IMG/VR virus record: IMGVR_UViG_3300025585_000178
Location: 1 to 22,908 of that record
Strand: one strand, 5' to 3'
Origin: a virus
Length of the DNA: 22,908 nt
How positions within the stretch are numbered: the stretch's first letter is position 1; each line of letters begins with the position of its first letter. The notes under the pieces are model-generated. The model saw only the letters and a program-made list of their open reading frames with translations, had not been told where the DNA came from and did not search any database. This document shows, piece by piece, positions 1 to 16,395 of the stretch. Position numbers and translations under genes: made by a program.

Positions 1-2402
1 AAAAAAGAAAGAAAAATGCGGTTAATCCAATCATCTATTCAGTAAAACAAAAATCGGATGTAAAGTTTTTTGATCTTGATTCAAAAATAGATTTAGACTC
101 AAAGGAACTTTCCTCCTTTAAAAAGAATCTTGAGTCCGACTCAGAATATAACGAATCCGCTGAATATGCTTTGTCTGAGCTTTTGGATGGAAATGTCAAG
201 ACATATACTGAACTTCTGAATGAATCGAGAAAGGGTTCGGTAAAGGATGAATTTCAGGATTTGGTAACAAATATTCAAGAAGATTTGAAGAAGCAAGGGT
301 ATGGGGGTTTTGAGCATACGGGCGGAAAAATAGTCGGAAAGAAAGAGCATCAAGTCAGAATTTATTGGGAGCCGGAAAATCAGATCGAGTTGAAAGAGGT
401 TATTGAAAGCGATCTTTACGAAACTCCAGAAATACATTTGGAGAGGGACTCGACATTCAAAGATTTCTTCAAAGAATCTAAAGGCGTACAGGCTTGGCTT
501 AACTATGCTTGGGGTGATATTCTTGACGCTATTCTTCCGCCAAGTAAAGCCGATGCGAACTTAAAAAAATCAATCATTGAAGATCTGAATATCAGTAAGG
601 AAATTCAAAAAGAAAAAGGTATTCAAAGAGTCCGTACGGATAAGTTTATAGACGCGGCAAAGGAAGCGTTTGGCTTTTCAAAAGAGGGAGATTTGCACGA
701 TAAGTTTTTACAAGACAGTAAACAAGAGGTAATAGGTGTTTTTGTGAATAGTGCAGGAAAAAGAAAAAGACTTAAGTATTCTAAAGCTCAAGCAAGAAAA
801 TTCTGGATGGAGTTGCAAGATCCATCTCTTAAAGAAACCATTGAGTCACCAGAAGGTATGGGGTTCACGCCTGAGATGATTGCAGCAGTAACTTCAACAC
901 TCGATCATAAAGATATTTCTTTTGCAAAAGCTCAGTTAAGACTTTACGAAGAATTTTATCCAGAAATCAATAAAGTTTATCGCCTTATTTATGGCGTGGA
1001 TTTACCGTCAATTGAGAACTATAGCCCAATCTCAAGAATTGTGGATAAGATATTAGATTCTTCCGTTGGAGAGTTTCTTCAAGAAACTTTTGTCAGACTT
1101 TCAATCGCTCCGGGCAGCTTAAAAAGCCGTGTAAATAATTTGGGCGAGCTGCGTAAAAGCAGTGATATTGAAGTTTATCAAAAACATATTGTAGAGATGT
1201 CTCACTTTATTGCGATGCAAGAAAAGGTTCAGCAAATCCAACAAGTATTTGGCGATAAAGAAGTCAGAAAAAATATTGAGAAAGTTGCCGGAAAATTATA
1301 CTTAAAACTTATTGATGAGAATGTGGAAAGTTTTGCCAAAAATGGTGCAGCAAAATCTAACTTCCTTGGCGATATGATTAATTACCTCAACAGAGGTTTT
1401 GCCCTATCAGTTCTTGGTGGAAAGATGGCTCTGACGGCTAAGCAAGCAACGTCAATCTTCGCTTATTGGGATGAGATGTCAGCAAAAGATTTTGTCTCTG
1501 GCGTAATTGATTTTGCAAAAAATCCCAAAAAAGCAATTGATATTTTAAATCAGTCCGAACTCGTTAAGGCTCGTGGCGTGCCGGAATATGACTTGGCAAA
1601 AATCGGAAAAACAAATCAATTTAAAATTGTTGCGACCAAAAATAAATTCATTGACGCAATGCTTCTTCCGGTAAAATTTGGTGATAAAGGAGCGATTTTA
1701 ATTGGTGGTTGGGCTTACTACAAAAACCAAATCAGACAAGGTAAAACTCCTGACCAAGCATTACAGGCGTTTGAAGAATTTACTGCAAAAACTCAGCAAT
1801 CGACTGACTTAGATCAGATCACTTCATTACAAAGAAGCGGTGCTTTTGGAAGAACTTTAACAATGTTCTTGACAGCTCCTAACGCTTACTACAGAGCGGA
1901 AGTAAAAGCGATCAGACAGTTCAAGCGTGGAGAAATTTCTGGAAAAGAATTTGGAAAAAAATTATTCATCTACCATATTTTGTTGCCAGCTACATTCCAA
2001 TTTGTTGCGAACGGATTTACCTTTGATGAAGAAGATCAGTTGGTTGCGGTTGCTACTGGACCATTGAACGGATTTTTTATCCTTGGAGATCTGATAAATA
2101 ATTTAATCAGAGAGGCTTTTGACGGCGATTCTTTTCAAGAGAGCGGTTTTAAATTTATGAAATTTGCTCAAGAGGTAAAAGATGGTATGTTAGAGATTGC
2201 AAAATCTGGCGGAGATATGGAAGATGTTCTTGAGGGTGTTCAGGATATTTCCAAAGGAATAGGAAGGATTGCTGGGCTACCAGTCGATCAAGCTAAAAAT
2301 ATGGCTGAGGGAATTGATGATTTTGATTCAGGTCGTCCGGTAAGGGGAACGCTAAGATTTTTGGGCTATCCGAAGAAATCAGTTGAAGAAATTGATAATT
2401 AG
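1..2402 (+). CDS. Large internal virion / LPD38-like protein, 5'-truncated by window
   Basis: The frame is open from base 3 to the TAG at 2400-2402, giving 799 visible residues, so the true start lies left of the window; the TTG at 171 is only the first start-like codon inside a longer gene. The product is mostly charged helix. A C-terminal segment (around 1360-2100) has the look of the 'large polyvalent protein associated' domain LPD38: an ALSVLGGKMALTAKQATSIF stretch, then a TAPNAYYRAEVKAIRQFKRG stretch followed by a hydrophobic HILLPATFQFVANG segment. Proteins of this type in podophages are very large virion proteins thought to be ejected with the DNA. Position just before the tail fibre fits. 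The family assignment is by remembered resemblance; the N-terminal domains are not visible. Confidence 0.7.
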   Translation, partial: KRKKNAVNPIIYSVKQKSDVKFFDLDSKIDLDSKELSSFKKNLESDSEYNESAEYALSELLDGNVKTYTELLNESRKGSVKDEFQDLVTNIQEDLKKQGYGGFEHTGGKIVGKKEHQVRIYWEPENQIELKEVIESDLYETPEIHLERDSTFKDFFKESKGVQAWLNYAWGDILDAILPPSKADANLKKSIIEDLNISKEIQKEKGIQRVRTDKFIDAAKEAFGFSKEGDLHDKFLQDSKQEVIGVFVNSAGKRKRLKYSKAQARKFWMELQDPSLKETIESPEGMGFTPEMIAAVTSTLDHKDISFAKAQLRLYEEFYPEINKVYRLIYGVDLPSIENYSPISRIVDKILDSSVGEFLQETFVRLSIAPGSLKSRVNNLGELRKSSDIEVYQKHIVEMSHFIAMQEKVQQIQQVFGDKEVRKNIEKVAGKLYLKLIDENVESFAKNGAAKSNFLGDMINYLNRGFALSVLGGKMALTAKQATSIFAYWDEMSAKDFVSGVIDFAKNPKKAIDILNQSELVKARGVPEYDLAKIGKTNQFKIVATKNKFIDAMLLPVKFGDKGAILIGGWAYYKNQIRQGKTPDQALQAFEEFTAKTQQSTDLDQITSLQRSGAFGRTLTMFLTAPNAYYRAEVKAIRQFKRGEISGKEFGKKLFIYHILLPATFQFVANGFTFDEEDQLVAVATGPLNGFFILGDLINNLIREAFDGDSFQESGFKFMKFAQEVKDGMLEIAKSGGDMEDVLEGVQDISKGIGRIAGLPVDQAKNMAEGIDDFDSGRPVRGTLRFLGYPKKSVEEIDN

Positions 2403-5827: not shown

Positions 5828-6177
5828 CTCAGCAATTGGAAGACTTCATCAAGAGCGACACTTTCAAGGAACAGATAACAACGATTATGGTTCCTTATAC
5901 TACAAAAGTTATTGAAGAAGTAATTCGTCAGCACTCTCACAACACAAAAGACATTGTTGCTGACACGGTTAAAACAGTATTTTTGGAGATGGGATTAAAT
6001 ATTTCTAAAGAAACCGATGAGATAAAAAAAGATTTTTCGCATATGCGGCAAGCAAGACAAGGGTGCGAAGCCATCAAAAGCAATGCCATAAAGACCATAT
6101 TAACAGTAACGATCCCGACAGTTCTTTATTTTGTCGGCAACGCAATAATAGAAAAATTACAAATTGTTATCAAATAA
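5824..6177 (+). CDS. Small accessory protein with C-terminal membrane helix (DUF6127-like)
   Basis: A 117-residue protein starting at the ATGA overlap with the upstream gene. Residues 1-85 are polar helix with an EEVIRQHSHNTKDIVADTVKTVFLEMGL core and a FSHMRQARQGCEAIKSNAIKT stretch, followed by one hydrophobic helix (ILTVTIPTVLYFVGNAII). The layout recalls small alphaproteobacterial phage proteins of the DUF6127 kind, usually found next to holin and endolysin genes; this is a pattern-level resemblance. It may serve as a holin partner or anchor. Its last 14 bases overlap the next gene. Confidence 0.55.
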   Translation: MTQQLEDFIKSDTFKEQITTIMVPYTTKVIEEVIRQHSHNTKDIVADTVKTVFLEMGLNISKETDEIKKDFSHMRQARQGCEAIKSNAIKTILTVTIPTVLYFVGNAIIEKLQIVIK

Positions 6178-6430
6178 ATTAGCACAGTTTTTTGAGGGAC
6201 CAGCCGGATCAAAATCTTCAAAAAGATTGATCGGAATTGTCGGCGGCATAGCGCTGATTTATCTTGCTGTCCGTGGTGGAGAGCATTTTTTAGCACAAAA
6301 TAATTCCGAAGCCTTCCTTAGATTATTTGACAGCCTCGCAATTTTTGTTGCTGGGGTTCTTGGTCTTGGTTTGGCGGATTATAAAATTAAAAAAGAAAAT
6401 GAAAAAGTATCTGATCCTGATAGTAAGTAG
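6164..6430 (+). CDS. Holin-like two-span membrane protein
   Basis: An 88-residue product from a TTG start; no ATG is available in the frame before the first membrane helix. It has two membrane helices (RLIGIVGGIALIYLAV, about residues 21-37, and DSLAIFVAGVLGLGLADY, about 56-74) and a very charged tail KIKKENEKVSDPDSK. Size, two spans, charged C-terminus and position just before the spanins and endolysin fit a holin, the protein that opens the inner membrane to release the muramidase. No Shine-Dalgarno site is evident; translation may be coupled to the upstream gene, which it overlaps by 14 bases. Confidence 0.6.
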   Translation: MLSNKLAQFFEGPAGSKSSKRLIGIVGGIALIYLAVRGGEHFLAQNNSEAFLRLFDSLAIFVAGVLGLGLADYKIKKENEKVSDPDSK

Positions 6431-10914: not shown

Positions 10915-11769
10915 TTAATTTTTAAATATAGTTGATAAAATATGCTTAATTACTGGTACAGTAAAACTATTCCCTAAAGCTTTATAAGCTTGAGTTTTGC
11001 TAACTGAGTCACAATAACCACTAGGGAATCCTTGTAGTTCACAAGATTCGTTAACAGTAAGCATTCTATATAACGATTTATCAGTACTATCCATATCTTG
11101 TCCAACTACAGATTTATGAGCAATGATTGGTCTTCCTGCTCCCCTTACACCTTTATACATTGAAGCGGTTAGTGTTCCAAGTTTTTCAGTTTTTCTAAAA
11201 AATCTTTTATTTGAAAACCCAATAGCTGCATAACACCAATTTTCATCAATCATTAATAGCTGATTAGCTTCTTTAGGCTGTTCAATTATTACTTGATTAT
11301 ATTTATCGGCAACCAACTTTCCAACCCAATAATACCGCTTGCGCTGCTGCGCCGTTAAAAGTGCAGAATTAATCATTATCGGTTCAATTCCCAGATTCTT
11401 ACTGATAATATCACGATCAGCAGCTTTCATTGATGCAACATTTTCTAAAACAAAATATCTTGGTTTAACCTTGTTCAAAATTCTTAGATATTCAAAAAAC
11501 AATCCGCTTCGCTTACCTTCTAAGCCTTTTCCGTTACCTGCAATTGATAGGTCTTGGCATGGCGAGCCACCAATAAGCAAATCAACATCAATGACACTAC
11601 CGCCCACATTCCTAACATCGCCCATCTGGACAATATCGGGGTAATTAGCTTTAGAAATCTGCATAGCGTATTTATCGATCTCACTAGCATAATATTCACA
11701 ATCGATATTAAGCTCTTTGAGCGCCTGCCTAGCTCCAGATATTCCGTCGAATAAACTCAATACTCGCAT
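10915..11769 (-). CDS. Orphan DNA cytosine-5 methyltransferase
   Basis: A 284-residue C5 methyltransferase with all core motifs: I (SLFDGISGA, AdoMet binding), IV (GGSPCQDLS, catalytic Cys71), VI (ENV, Glu109), VIII (QQRKR, 141-145), IX (RMLTVNESCELQGFP) and X (AYKALGNSFTVPVI). The target-recognition region between VIII and IX is short (about 90 residues). No restriction endonuclease gene is adjacent, so it probably protects phage DNA from host restriction or alters expression. The segment around motifs I-VIII (LFFEYLRILNKVKPRYFVLE, DRDIISK..GIEPIMI) is notably like the DNMT3-type layout. Its ATG overlaps the upstream stop (TAATG), suggesting coupled translation. Target sequence unknown. Confidence 0.93.
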   Translation of the reverse strand: MRVLSLFDGISGARQALKELNIDCEYYASEIDKYAMQISKANYPDIVQMGDVRNVGGSVIDVDLLIGGSPCQDLSIAGNGKGLEGKRSGLFFEYLRILNKVKPRYFVLENVASMKAADRDIISKNLGIEPIMINSALLTAQQRKRYYWVGKLVADKYNQVIIEQPKEANQLLMIDENWCYAAIGFSNKRFFRKTEKLGTLTASMYKGVRGAGRPIIAHKSVVGQDMDSTDKSLYRMLTVNESCELQGFPSGYCDSVSKTQAYKALGNSFTVPVIKHILSTIFKN

Positions 11770-12245: not shown

Positions 12246-12689
12246 TTACCAAGGAATCTCATCGCCAAGATCATCGTCTTGAGAATTTGATTGCGCTTGT
12301 TTCGCAGGGGCGGCAGCAGCTTTGCGCTGACCATCCTCTTTCTTGTCAAGAAGAACCAACTCGCCACCAAACATAGGAATTTCTACCTCAGTATTGTAGC
12401 GTTCGATGCCTTCTCTATCAGTGAATTTTTTAGTCTTCATCTGACCTTCGACATAAACACGAGAGCCTTTGTGCAGGTATTGAATCAGCTTACAAATTCT
12501 TTCATTGAAAGTTGAGATGTTGTGCCATTCAGTTTTTGATTCCCACTCTCCGGTCTGTTTACTTTTAAATTCTTCCGAGGTTGCGATTGAAAATCTCGCC
12601 CAAGGATTTCCGTTTTTTGTTGTGCCGCTTTCCGGGTCTTTACCCAAAGTTCCTAGTAAGCTGACTTTATTTAATGATCTTAATGCCAT
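12246..12689 (-). CDS. ssb: Single-stranded DNA-binding protein
   Basis: A 147-residue SSB. The OB-fold starts MALRSLNKVSLLGTLGKDPE and continues WARFSIATSEEF, TEWHNISTFNERICKLIQYL, GSRVYVEGQMKTKKFTDREG. A Gln/Ala/Ser linker leads to the acidic tip DDDLGDEIPW, which in SSBs recruits partner proteins. The tip ends in Trp, where Phe is usual. The ATG at 12689 is chosen because the canonical SSB N-terminus starts there; the longer frame from 12752 only adds shadow of the upstream gene. It coats single-stranded DNA in replication and recombination and belongs with RecT and the exonuclease just upstream. It overlaps the HTH gene by 23 bases. Confidence 0.95.
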   Translation of the reverse strand: MALRSLNKVSLLGTLGKDPESGTTKNGNPWARFSIATSEEFKSKQTGEWESKTEWHNISTFNERICKLIQYLHKGSRVYVEGQMKTKKFTDREGIERYNTEVEIPMFGGELVLLDKKEDGQRKAAAAPAKQAQSNSQDDDLGDEIPW

Positions 12690-12918
12690 TTTTTTCTTTC
12701 TCTTTTTCAAAGTTAATAATGTCAGAATATTTGTAATAAACATTCCGCCCAATGTAAAACCATTGGGGATGATTAAAAGCTAAATACCTTGCAGACCGGA
12801 TGGACTGTGGATGCCACCCCCACCGAGCCGCAAGTTGATTAGATGTTAAACAATTTCTTGGCTTAGGAACCATCTCTTTTGGTTTCCGCCTAATTTTATT
12901 TCCTGATTTAAAACGCAT
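12667..12918 (-). CDS. Small helix-turn-helix DNA-binding protein
   Basis: An 83-residue basic protein. The motif LTSNQLAARWGWHPQSIRSA (about 26-45), then NHPQWFYIGRNVYYKYSDII, is the winged HTH_17/AlpA/excisionase type: one recognition helix and a wing with IGR.VYY..SDI. Such proteins act as excisionases or small regulators; no integrase gene is visible, so a regulatory role is equally possible. ATG 12918 is preferred to 12954 because GGAGG lies six bases upstream (12925-12929). The start overlaps the RecT gene end by 11 bases. Confidence 0.75.
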   Translation of the reverse strand: MRFKSGNKIRRKPKEMVPKPRNCLTSNQLAARWGWHPQSIRSARYLAFNHPQWFYIGRNVYYKYSDIINFEKEKEKNGIKIIK

Positions 12919-13987
12919 CGCCGTCCTCCGCTGGTTCGAGATCGTCCTCCTCAACGACTGCCGCTAATTTCTTGCTGGTAGTTTTTTGTTGAGGTTGGGG
13001 CTGATCCCAGTTATTAGGATTGCCGACATCGTTGTCCTCAGATTCTTTTATCGGTGCTGGTTTTTTAGCTTCCTGTTTTGGAAGTTTGTTCAACACCTCA
13101 GTAATCCAAGTCGCCACTTCTTTCTTGTGGTCGATCGGCAATTGTTCAAACCAACTCTTCAATGATACTCTGTCCTTAAAAGACTCGGCTTCGTTTCTGA
13201 GTTGTTGTGGTAGAGAGATCTTCTCACGATCAGCAACAACCTGTTCATTTACTATTGGTTGAGGTTGGTTTTCGTCAGGAGTCCCTGTCTCGTTTTCAAT
13301 AACTACACCATCTTCATCCGCAACAATGTCGGAATCTAAATGGCTGGTTACTGATTTCATTTCTTCGGAATTTTTCGGTAGGAATTTTGAGATCTGTCTT
13401 AACGCTGACTTACCCCAGAACTCATCTGCCTCTTGATCCCATAGCTTTGGATTTTTGCTTTTAGCTTTGAGCTTCATAACTTTTTCTTTGCTCAAAAATT
13501 TCAACAAAACATTTCCATCGGTCAGTTTTGCTGCGGCGTAAACACCGATCCGTTCGCCCTTATCTTTTTCTGGAGCGAAGACTAAAGGCTCGTGTTCCAT
13601 TTGTTCTTCGCCGTTTACGATCTTGATCTTGAAAGGCTCATTCGACCAAACCAAATAAACCGAAACCTTTGATACGGCTCCAGAATTTTGAATCAGTTTC
13701 ATCAAGCCCCAAACCATCGGAGAGTATTGAGCCTCAGACCCGAAGGTCATCCAACAAGCCTCGTTACCATCCATTAACAAACCTTCCTTGGCAGCCTTTT
13801 CAAGGGCGACCATAATAGATTTTTCTGATGCGCCTTGCAGCTTTCCAGTTTTATCTTTTGAGATTGAATCAACATAGAAAGTTTTTGCCGCAGTCACGAA
13901 CTTCTCTGCTAAGATGTGCGCTGGTAGTAGCTTACGATACCTTTCGATCTGGGTATCAATCAGTTGTGAAAACTTTTTCGGTTCCAT
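12908..13987 (-). CDS. recT: RecT-family single-strand annealing protein
   Basis: A 359-residue annealase. The RecT core is clear: MVALEKAAKEGLLMDGNEAC, then FGSEAQYSPMVWGLMKLIQN (the YxPMxxGLxxL helix), a VYAAAKLTDG strand and KSKNPKLWDQEADEFWGKSA LRQ (the E..W..K.A...... block). A long acidic and Gln/Pro-rich tail follows residue 230, ending LEPAEDGDAF, and may interact with SSB or the exonuclease. RecT anneals complementary strands produced by the exonuclease encoded just upstream, forming a two-component phage recombinase. The gap to the upstream gene is one base. Confidence 0.9.
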   Translation of the reverse strand: MEPKKFSQLIDTQIERYRKLLPAHILAEKFVTAAKTFYVDSISKDKTGKLQGASEKSIMVALEKAAKEGLLMDGNEACWMTFGSEAQYSPMVWGLMKLIQNSGAVSKVSVYLVWSNEPFKIKIVNGEEQMEHEPLVFAPEKDKGERIGVYAAAKLTDGNVLLKFLSKEKVMKLKAKSKNPKLWDQEADEFWGKSALRQISKFLPKNSEEMKSVTSHLDSDIVADEDGVVIENETGTPDENQPQPIVNEQVVADREKISLPQQLRNEAESFKDRVSLKSWFEQLPIDHKKEVATWITEVLNKLPKQEAKKPAPIKESEDNDVGNPNNWDQPQPQQKTTSKKLAAVVEEDDLEPAEDGDAF

Positions 13988-13988
13988 A

Positions 13989-14993
13989 TTATGATATTTT
14001 TTTAATTGTTATTCTACGATAGCCAGAACGACCGCCGTAGGTAGTGCCAACCATATCACTAGTGATAACAGTTGGAGGTGATGCCTTAACTTCGGAAAAT
14101 TTTACAGCGTAGTTGTAAGATACGGCAGCCGGAGCATTCTTAATTAAGTCAGTGATCTCAGCCTTTGCAGCATCTTCAATTTTTTCTAAAGCCTTCCTTT
14201 GTTCTCCGGCTTCCAAGAATCTTTGGCAAGCTGCTTGGAAATTAATGTCATCACCAAAATCAATTGCTTGATCGTGCAGATTGTGAGCGTAAATTTTCTT
14301 GATGATGTCGCCATCCTCTGAGTAGTCAGCTTGTGGAGGAGTTTGCTTCGCAACCATATCCCAGAACTTCGTGATTTTTTTACAGATTCTTCTACCAAAA
14401 TCTTCATCACGATCACGCAACAAAATGTGGATGTCATACCCGATCACCGATGCAACAAGAGCGGTCCAGCCTCTACGGCAGATTTCTAATTGTTGCTGCA
14501 CTTGGAACTCGATGTGAAGCGGGGCTTCCTCGTCAGTCCATTCTTTTTTGTGGACAAAATAATCCACGAGTTTGATCTCTAAAATTCCGGGACCGCTTTC
14601 GATAAATTTATCACGCAACATATTGGCGTTATATTTATCTTGAGCCATCTCAGGATTCCAATCGTCAGCAAGACCGATGATTTCGTAATCAAAGCTCGCA
14701 CCCATTTTAGGAGTTTCGCCGTGGCGCATATACTCTTTCATTGGGCGGACGATCACGCCATACATTTTAGCAATTGCTTCTGCGGTTGGAGCTTCGTAAA
14801 TTTTTCCCCAGAAAGCACGCTTGGATTTTAGCTCATCTTTTTCAAGCAGCCCAGCCTTCTCGTGGTAAAGCGAGAACGCAGTTGCGTAAGGAGATTTATT
14901 GTAAAGGGCAGCAACCTCTGTTGAGGAGATGTCCTCGGACTTCCATTGAAGCCACTCGGTATCATCTTTTGGATGTAAAATTATAGGATTCAT
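13989..14993 (-). CDS. YqaJ-like viral recombinase exonuclease
   Basis: A 334-residue nuclease of the YqaJ/lambda Exo type. Features: ISSTEVAALYNKSPYATAF with the LYHEKAG that follows (N-terminal substrate motif), a FWGKIYEAPTAE helix, the catalytic FDYEI Asp102, the E-x-K pair in GILEIKLVD (Glu139, Lys141) and HIEFQVQQQL. It would resect double-stranded DNA 5' to 3', leaving the 3' strand for RecT. ATG 14993 begins the conserved core; the earlier in-frame ATG at 15062 adds a low-complexity stretch inside the upstream gene and is not used. The leader is A-rich with a C/A pattern and no Shine-Dalgarno site. Confidence 0.88.
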   Translation of the reverse strand: MNPIILHPKDDTEWLQWKSEDISSTEVAALYNKSPYATAFSLYHEKAGLLEKDELKSKRAFWGKIYEAPTAEAIAKMYGVIVRPMKEYMRHGETPKMGASFDYEIIGLADDWNPEMAQDKYNANMLRDKFIESGPGILEIKLVDYFVHKKEWTDEEAPLHIEFQVQQQLEICRRGWTALVASVIGYDIHILLRDRDEDFGRRICKKITKFWDMVAKQTPPQADYSEDGDIIKKIYAHNLHDQAIDFGDDINFQAACQRFLEAGEQRKALEKIEDAAKAEITDLIKNAPAAVSYNYAVKFSEVKASPPTVITSDMVGTTYGGRSGYRRITIKKIS

Positions 14994-15012: not shown

Positions 15013-15258
15013 TTACTCTTGTTTTGTAGCTGCTTTGACTGCAAACATAGCGGCGGATTCAATTTGATCCTGAGCTAAAGTAGTCAGCCTATATATATCC
15101 TGGTCTAAAAAATCCCTTGGAGGGTTGGCTCTTGGTTTTATTTCTTGAATTAAATCAATAAGTTCCGCAGCCTTAGTTTTTATTTCATCCACGAGTGGAT
15201 TGTTTGAAGGATTAAAGTTTATTCCAACCCTAAATTCACCTAATGTTTTTTCGTTCAT
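15013..15258 (-). CDS. Acb2/Tad1 hairpin-like protein (possible nucleotide sponge)
   Basis: An 81-residue protein: FRVGINFNPSNNPLVDEIKT (residues 9-28), a KAAELIDLIQEI helix, then a second helix ending ESAAMFAVKAATKQ. Two helices joined by a turn with this FNPS...IK..A.LID...AAM.AVKAATK pattern recall short phage proteins placed in the Acb2/Tad1 hairpin family. Characterised members (Acb2, T4 Vs.4) sequester cyclic nucleotide signals of CBASS, and Tad1 sequesters the Thoeris signal. Many family members are uncharacterised, so sponge activity is an inference. It lies between the exonuclease gene and the tRNA in a recombination cluster, which fits an accessory anti-defence gene. The leader is A-rich without a Shine-Dalgarno site. 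Confidence 0.55.
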   Translation of the reverse strand: MNEKTLGEFRVGINFNPSNNPLVDEIKTKAAELIDLIQEIKPRANPPRDFLDQDIYRLTTLAQDQIESAAMFAVKAATKQE

Positions 15259-15283: not shown

Positions 15284-15361
15284 TGGTTGCGGGTGCAAGA
15301 TTTGAACTTGCGATCTCCTACTTATGAGGTAGGCGAGATAACCAAACTTCTCCAACCCGCA
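15284..15361 (-). tRNA. tRNA with CAT anticodon (Met or Ile2), CCA encoded
   Basis: The minus strand folds as a complete cloverleaf: acceptor TGCGGGT paired with ACCCGCA, D-stem GAGA/TCTC with a GG in the loop, anticodon arm CCTAC-CTCATAA-GTAGG, variable AGATC, T-arm GCAAG-TTCAAAT-CTTGC, discriminator A, then an encoded CCA at 15284-15286. The anticodon is CAT. The first acceptor pair T-A is matched, so it is not a classic initiator; elongator Met, or Ile2 after lysidine modification, is likely. It lies in the early leftward transcript between the Acb2-like gene and a hypothetical gene. Confidence 0.93.
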
Positions 15362-15523: not shown

Positions 15524-15796
15524 CTAATCTTTATCCGTGCCGGATTTTTTAACTTCGGTAGATAATCTTTCCAAAGCCTTCATTGCAACCTTACCGATCT
15601 CAATCATTTCTTCTTCGTTAAGTTGCACTTCGACTGCGCCTTTGTAAGACATATAGTCGCTGGAATTTGCACCTTCATCTACGAATGAAGCTCTGCCTGA
15701 AAGTTTTTGTTCAGTTGATCTGCCGGAAGAGTCCGCCATTTTTTCTGTACAACACATACTTTCAGAATTGATGTAGAGGTTAGTTAGTTTTTTCAT
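15524..15796 (-). CDS. Hypothetical protein, 90 aa
   Basis: A product starting MKKLTNLYINSESMCCTEKM with a Ser/Gly-rich middle and a C-terminal acidic helix (VQLNEEEMIEIGKVAMKALE). The start is fixed by AAGGAGA nine bases upstream (15806-15812 on the plus strand) and by an ATGA overlap with the preceding microprotein. It is driven by the promoter at 15986-16014. No family is recognised. Confidence 0.5.
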   Translation of the reverse strand: MKKLTNLYINSESMCCTEKMADSSGRSTEQKLSGRASFVDEGANSSDYMSYKGAVEVQLNEEEMIEIGKVAMKALERLSTEVKKSGTDKD

Positions 15797-15948
15797 AATT
15801 TTATTTCTCCTTGTTGATATTTTTTTTTGATCTCTTCGATTAATTTTTCGTTGTGAGATTTTGTCTGAATTTTTTTAGACTGATTCACAACAAAAAACAT
15901 GATGACAAAGCAAACTAAAGTTGTAATTATTATTTCTAATGTTTTCAT
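15793..15948 (-). CDS. 51-residue single-span membrane microprotein
   Basis: The frame MKTLEIIITTLVCFVIMFFV... encodes a membrane helix (residues 4-21) and a Lys/Glu-rich tail ending YQQGEIKL. Its TGA overlaps the ATG of the next gene (ATGA), and the ribosome site of that gene lies within its last codons, typical of real coupled genes in this block. It is the first gene after the strong leftward promoter, about 30 bases from the predicted transcript start. Too short for ordinary length cut-offs; function unknown, perhaps a small membrane regulator. Confidence 0.6.
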   Translation of the reverse strand: MKTLEIIITTLVCFVIMFFVVNQSKKIQTKSHNEKLIEEIKKKYQQGEIKL

Positions 15949-16017: not shown

Positions 16018-16395
16018 CTATTTTAAAATATTTTTATATTCATCGTCAGACCTTGCGAATCCTGCATAGCCGCCAGATTTTTTTACTTGTTCAATAAAAT
16101 TTATTTGTCCTTTTAAAGTTTCGTTTGGGTTTTTTGGAAAAACAAATCCCTCTTTTTTACATTCGATTGCCGTAAAAATTGCGACAGTTTTTCCAACCAT
16201 ATCCGGCGTGATTTTTACCTCAGTCCATCCAATTAAATCTGAGCTGCCATTATGCAATCCGGTCTTGATAACTCTGCCGTCAAGAGTTTTGAACAATCCT
16301 ACATTGTTGCGGAATAATCTGTTGCGAAGGCGTGATGCAGCAAGAAGTATCTTGGCTTGAACATTACATTCGGCGGTTAGTTTTTCCGTTGCCAT
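16018..16395 (-). CDS. VRR-NUC domain nuclease
   Basis: A 125-residue stand-alone VRR-NUC protein of the PD-(D/E)XK superfamily. Visible motifs: RNRLFRNNVGLFKTLDGRVI, GLHNGSSDLIGW (catalytic Asp), TAIECKKEG (E-x-K), QINFIEQVKKSGGYAGFARS. Short viral members are structure-specific nucleases or Holliday-junction resolvases and usually lie next to a helicase, as here: its start overlaps the SF2 helicase stop by 19 bases. Likely roles are processing branched replication or recombination DNA. The leader has AAAAACAAA at 16400-16408 (plus-strand coordinates) but no Shine-Dalgarno site. Confidence 0.9.
   Translation of the reverse strand: MATEKLTAECNVQAKILLAASRLRNRLFRNNVGLFKTLDGRVIKTGLHNGSSDLIGWTEVKITPDMVGKTVAIFTAIECKKEGFVFPKNPNETLKGQINFIEQVKKSGGYAGFARSDDEYKNILK

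Follow-up and report, generated by a model that had tools for sequence, protein, structure and literature searches.

Judged by its sequence, the product of an 81-codon gene of the viral contig studied here (22,908 bases, called the window below) belongs to the Acb2/Tad1 hairpin family (PF24729); it is a small protein built as a helical hairpin, and it occupies a distant branch of that family. We think it probable, although by no means assured, that this protein is a cyclic-oligonucleotide sponge working by the anti-CBASS mechanism of its family, because both its family membership and the oligomer contacts that it has kept support such a mechanism; an anti-immunity role of the gene would be likely. 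The family itself is already known and named in Pfam, and the protein adds a new member to a large branch of it. This is a real gene, beyond chance, with hundreds of family members, a record of purifying selection and a match to a curated Pfam model.

A first-pass annotation, made from the letters of the window, had described an 81-residue product with the motifs FNPS, IKTKAAELIDLI and AAMFAVKAATK, lying next to genes for an exonuclease, a RecT protein and an SSB. All three motifs are present as quoted, and the three neighbours are confirmed by their matches to PF09588, PF03837 and PF00436, respectively (Table 1). That annotation did not include the tRNA-Met gene just upstream, which is separated from the start of the hairpin gene by about 25 nucleotides. 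On the other side, the ATG of the exonuclease lies at position 14993, about 20 nucleotides past the stop codon of the hairpin gene, and the RecT and SSB genes follow the exonuclease on the same strand.

Table 1. Hairpin gene, predicted helices of its product, and surrounding features of the window
Feature	Coordinates	Strand	Remarks
Acb2/Tad1 hairpin-family gene	15013..15258	-	81 aa; ATG start; stop codon included
Short N-terminal helix, residues 6-10 (LGEFR), predicted	15229..15243	-	AlphaFold2
First hairpin helix, residues 21-38, predicted	15145..15198	-	Bears K27, L33; AlphaFold2 and alignment
Second hairpin helix, residues 50-77, predicted	15028..15111	-	Bears R57, A62, A69, A73, K75; AlphaFold2 and alignment
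tRNA-Met (anticodon CAT)	15284..15361	-	ARAGORN; directly upstream of hairpin gene
YqaJ/RecE-like exonuclease	13989..14993	-	PF09588, 58.3 bits; phrog_434; downstream neighbour of hairpin gene
RecT single-strand annealing protein	12908..13987	-	PF03837; phrog_148
SSB	12246..12689	-	PF00436; phrog_44; start taken at internal ATG (MALRSLNK...)
C-5 cytosine DNA methyltransferase	10915..11769	-	PF00145, 165.9 bits; possible anti-restriction gene
Small ORF upstream of hairpin gene region	15524..15796	-	90 aa; without family match
Small ORF	15793..15948	-	51 aa; hydrophobic N-terminus; weak matches below cut-offs
VRR-NUC domain nuclease	16018..16395	-	24.3 bits against a cut-off of 23.8; adjoins DEAD/ResIII helicase
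Open-ended ORF	3..2402	+	799 aa; resembles C-terminal end of phrog_9880 (2231 positions), a very large phage protein of unknown function

The family assignment had been proposed from pattern only, with a search against the hairpin Pfam profile as its check, and it turned out to be correct: PF24729 matches residues 18-78 with 33.9 bits, above the curated cut-off of 27 (E 3.5e-8). The same model is matched at E <= 1e-3 by 86 out of 87 diverse relatives, none of which matches another family, and by proven sponges as well (T4 Vs.4, 70.5 bits; PaP2 Acb2, 66.1 bits). When a profile of the 87 relatives was run against all PDB sequences, it reached T4 Vs.4 (7uq2) at E 7.1e-4, Acb2 homolog 43 (9ptq) at E 0.04 and Tad1 chains at E of about 0.6; these matches are individually modest, and designed helical proteins rank similarly to the sponges. 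A forward profile of 12 of the relatives retrieved Vs.4 and homolog 43 from the PDB, whereas the reversed-sequence profile of the same 12 retrieved no sponge. Finally, the relatives' profile aligned with a profile of 25 Vs.4 sequences over the C-terminal helix with a probability of 92% (E 6.4e-7), against 0.5% for the reversed control. The single sequence searched against the PDB with phmmer found no sponge, and neither PADLOC nor NCBIfam holds a model for the hairpin protein; the silence of NCBIfam is uninformative, since T4 Vs.4 is without an NCBIfam model too. In a tree of the family, T4 Vs.4 and PaP2 Acb2 could not be placed, their branch lengths being at the limit.

Vs.4 is a hexamer that binds three cGAMP molecules (PMC10097602); it requires L29, A66, A73 and A77 for hexamer formation, which is broken by their mutation, and its pocket consists of Y8 and F82, which stack on the bases, with H11, K23 and R79 as polar contacts, the change F82A lowering affinity more than 25-fold (PMC10097602). 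We aligned the C-terminal helix without gaps, and anchored the first helix by hand on its lysine, by spacing and motif rather than by a program alignment. In this alignment the four hexamer contacts correspond to L33, A62, A69 and A73 of the hairpin protein, all identical. In the pocket, K23 is matched by an identical K27 and R79 by a conservative K75; the stacking F82 is replaced by T78 and so lost. Elsewhere, S74 corresponds to A70 and T68 to D64. The equivalent of H11 is uncertain, and so is that of Y8 (perhaps F15): F15 stands 12 residues before K27, whereas Y8 of Vs.4 and Y11 of PaP2 Acb2 stand 15 before K23 and K26.

Relatives were collected with a scan pattern covering residues 69-76, which contain A69 and A73, so that the invariance of alanine and lysine within this motif is partly by construction, and for this reason we rely on positions outside it. 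There, conservation among the 87 relatives is high (K27 in 85, L33 in 76, A62 in 84, and an arginine at position 57 in 86), and K27, L33, R57, A62 and the F15-N16-P17 triplet are 87-99% conserved. R57 aligns with R67 of PaP2 Acb2, a residue that we take to belong, in the Acb2 of PaMx33 and PaP2, to the site where cyclic trinucleotides bind at the interface of the trimer; we treat this correspondence as a lead. The kept Arg57, together with the loss of the stacking phenylalanine of Vs.4, would weakly suggest that the main ligand is a cyclic trinucleotide and not a dinucleotide.

With Vs.4 (T4, 7uq2, the hexameric cGAMP sponge) the protein shares the Pfam family and the gapless C-terminal helix, where YRLTTLAQDQIESAAMFAVKAAT pairs with DQLTIAKTKLKEASMWACRAVF, but a very long tree branch separates the two and its first helix is much shorter. 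The Acb2 proteins of the PaP2/PaMx33 group (8h2j, 8h2x, 8ixz) also belong to the same Pfam family, with K26 aligned to K27, R67 to R57, and GRWLAIGKTDIQ paired with YRLTTLAQDQIE; they differ in the spacing of Y11 and K26 (15, against 12 for F15 and K27), lack both FNPS and AAM[FW]AVKA, and show weak profile similarity (hhalign probability 11%). Acb2 homolog 43, whose structure is solved (9ptq), passes PF24729 with 36.4 bits, has the same asparagine-to-lysine spacing (N9 to K20, as N16 to K27), and has R, E, A, A, K and A in common with the hairpin protein, but its loop is shorter and it is without the GE[YF]RVG lead-in. The likeness to Tad1 (cbTad1, 7uav and 8smd; Tad1, 8kbe-8kbh) lies in the C-terminal helical hairpin and the weak profile match already mentioned; unlike the hairpin protein, Tad1 possesses an N-terminal beta domain, which contributes to its gcADPR site. 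True relatives are found in the unnamed hairpin proteins of Flavobacterium phages (the FCL-2 group and elemo), Aggregatibacter phage S1249 and Providencia phage PS3, although in other gene neighbourhoods.

The AlphaFold2 monomer (mean pLDDT 94.7, pTM 0.83; input alignment made of the window sequence and the rows of fetched relative loci, those of annotated phage records being left out) has three helices and no strand. The description of the product as a two-helix protein thus holds for the two long helices, to which the model adds the short helix at the N-terminus. The packing, read off the hairpin, would be antiparallel for the two long helices, as in the PF24729 family. The first-pass annotation had also proposed a comparison of the predicted fold with Acb2, and in this respect the result is unfavourable: Foldseek placed no solved Acb2 or Tad1 among the 50 best matches listed from the PDB (best E 2.9), whereas a control model, built for the Vs.4 of a viral contig, found 7uq2 at E 7e-10 and PaP2 Acb2 (8h2x/8h2j) at E 0.025 with a TM of 0.75. 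We consider this miss a real negative, because the control shows that the method can link distant Acb2 proteins, although a monomer search is a blunt instrument for so small a hairpin. The miss is likely due to the predicted first helix, which has 18 residues instead of the 33 of the Vs.4 model, and to the long loop. When the model was compared with predicted viral structures, the top match was a protein of an uncultured phage that bears the name Acb2/Tad1 hairpin (E 1.9e-5); this match is not independent, since the name presumably derives from the same Pfam model.

One may ask whether the resemblance to PF24729 could be the chance product of a short helical sequence, with no homology behind it. 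Short helical proteins do yield spurious weak matches, such as the designed proteins met in our PDB searches, and the negative Foldseek result can be read in this way. However, the match stands above a curated cut-off, 86 of the 87 relatives point to one and the same family, the reversed controls are clean and the interface residues coincide with those of Vs.4. We regard a chance resemblance as very improbable indeed, and as largely refuted already.

The family has proved to be large. With tblastn, 154 phage records proved to contain a relative, Flavobacterium phages accounting for 146 of these records, with identities of up to 50%; those of the FCL-2 group, elemo, Aggregatibacter S1249 and Providencia PS3 are 38-50% identical to the hairpin protein, and the relatives inspected in annotated phage records carry the label hypothetical protein only. 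Among IMG/VR contigs, six with a relative were found with the single sequence as query, and at least 432 of 600 candidate viral-contig stretches were confirmed as relatives when the query was an alignment of 12 sequences. Scanned with the single sequence, bacterial genomes gave no relative; scanned with the alignment, they gave 23 loci. No relative exceeds 64% identity to the hairpin sequence of the window. Matches in Kuravirus (OR983333 and others) at E of about 5 fall inside a 344-aa protein and were taken as chance. It is clear that the family codes for protein and is subject to purifying selection: the median dN/dS is 0.17, and the ratio is below 1 in 882/882 informative pairs of sufficiently close relatives, pairs that are not independent of one another and in none of which the hairpin gene of the window itself takes part. 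Our literature search found no functional test, whether of nucleotide binding or of CBASS, for this branch.

The position of the gene next to an exonuclease, RecT and SSB raises the alternative that it encodes a divergent hairpin-family protein that has lost signal-nucleotide binding and works in phage DNA metabolism instead, for instance as a small oligomer that partners the exonuclease, the annealing protein or the SSB. In the elemo phages, too, the relative lies near an Erf annealing protein and a 5'-3' exonuclease, as well as a tRNA-Met gene; in several contigs, DNA polymerase A, an SNF2-type helicase or PhoH is encoded close by. Moreover, conservation is strong for an accessory gene, the invariant residues differ from the dinucleotide pocket of Vs.4, and the predicted fold does not retrieve solved Acb2. 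However, the neighbourhood varies among relatives. FCL-2 has its relative beside RusA and an SSB-like gene, that of Aggregatibacter S1249 lies between Rz1 and terminase, and that of Providencia PS3 between internal virion proteins; in many contigs the gene is close to terminase, portal, DNA polymerase A, helicase or PhoH. Such scattered contexts are more in keeping with an accessory gene that moves about than with a partner dedicated to recombination. We think that a role in DNA metabolism is unlikely. Because gene context is inconsistent among the relatives, we rejected a shared neighbourhood as a functional clue, and the position of the hairpin gene suggests an accessory gene and not a component of the recombinase. 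As to the tRNA-Met gene of the elemo phages, it lies about 3.3 kb downstream of their hairpin gene (L009:8558-8631).

If the hairpin protein is a sponge, as we favour, its copies would assemble through the alanine-lined faces of the two long helices, probably into a hexamer as in Vs.4, and would bind between their subunits the cyclic oligonucleotides made by CBASS (or type III CRISPR) sensors of the host. The signal would then be kept from its effector, and the infected cell would not kill itself. From the gene position, the protein may be produced together with the exonuclease, RecT and SSB. Genes for SMODS (CD-NTase) proteins are not notably frequent in genomes holding relatives (SMODS matches over the cut-off in 3 of 16, against 2 of 14 controls), a result that neither helps nor hurts the sponge reading.

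The sponge might instead take up a ligand foreign to CBASS, be it gcADPR, some other Thoeris signal or a still undescribed nucleotide. The hairpin of Tad1 belongs to the Pfam family, and Tad1 chains turn up weakly in the profile search; phrog_717 is matched in its C-terminal part (positions 212-284 of 289), its long N-terminal region being absent here. The first-pass annotation had likewise mentioned Thoeris signals among those absorbed by some members of the family. The gcADPR pocket of Tad1 is formed by conserved loops, the C-terminal tail and helices of two protomers (PMC12043709). Yet only about 14 residues precede FNPS in the hairpin protein, and there is no beta domain; binding of gcADPR is unlikely for this reason, and a non-CBASS ligand in general seems to us quite improbable. 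We retain a cyclic-oligonucleotide sponge as the preferred reading; nevertheless, "Acb2" should not be written as the proven function of this protein.

A broader proposal is possible, although we lean against it ourselves. Acb2 has been called "relatively rare" (PMC11722364). The branch described here, recognizable by the pattern GE[YF]RVG-x-x-FNPS ... RLxxLAxT ... AAM[FW]AVKAxT, is large, mostly environmental, and spread over phages of Alphaproteobacteria, Bacteroidota and others; with its rebuilt nucleotide site (no F82, a short first helix, a fixed Arg57), it might soak up a signal other than that of known Acb2, which would make hairpin sponges far commoner than that description implies. 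Should the branch bind signal nucleotides, sequestration would prove a widespread means of counter-defence among environmental phages, relatives being present in at least 432 viral contigs; the altered pocket would allow one to test directly how a two-helix scaffold evolves its choice of ligand. If the branch binds none, the automatic naming of proteins as "Acb2" from PF24729 would prove unsafe.

A few further observations were made among the loci of relatives. The gene of Providencia phage PS3 (Autographiviridae; L012:4998-5195) encodes a hairpin-family protein of 65 aa, annotated as hypothetical. In three loci (L060, L061 and L062, each at 5995-6423) the hairpin protein bears a C-terminal extension of about 65 aa, for a total of 143 aa. 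Another locus (L084:2230-4461) encodes a terminase-like protein with an apparent intein interruption (GTMKALDSDTPILTIEGWKRHGDL...VAGHTLIATHNS), as judged by eye only.
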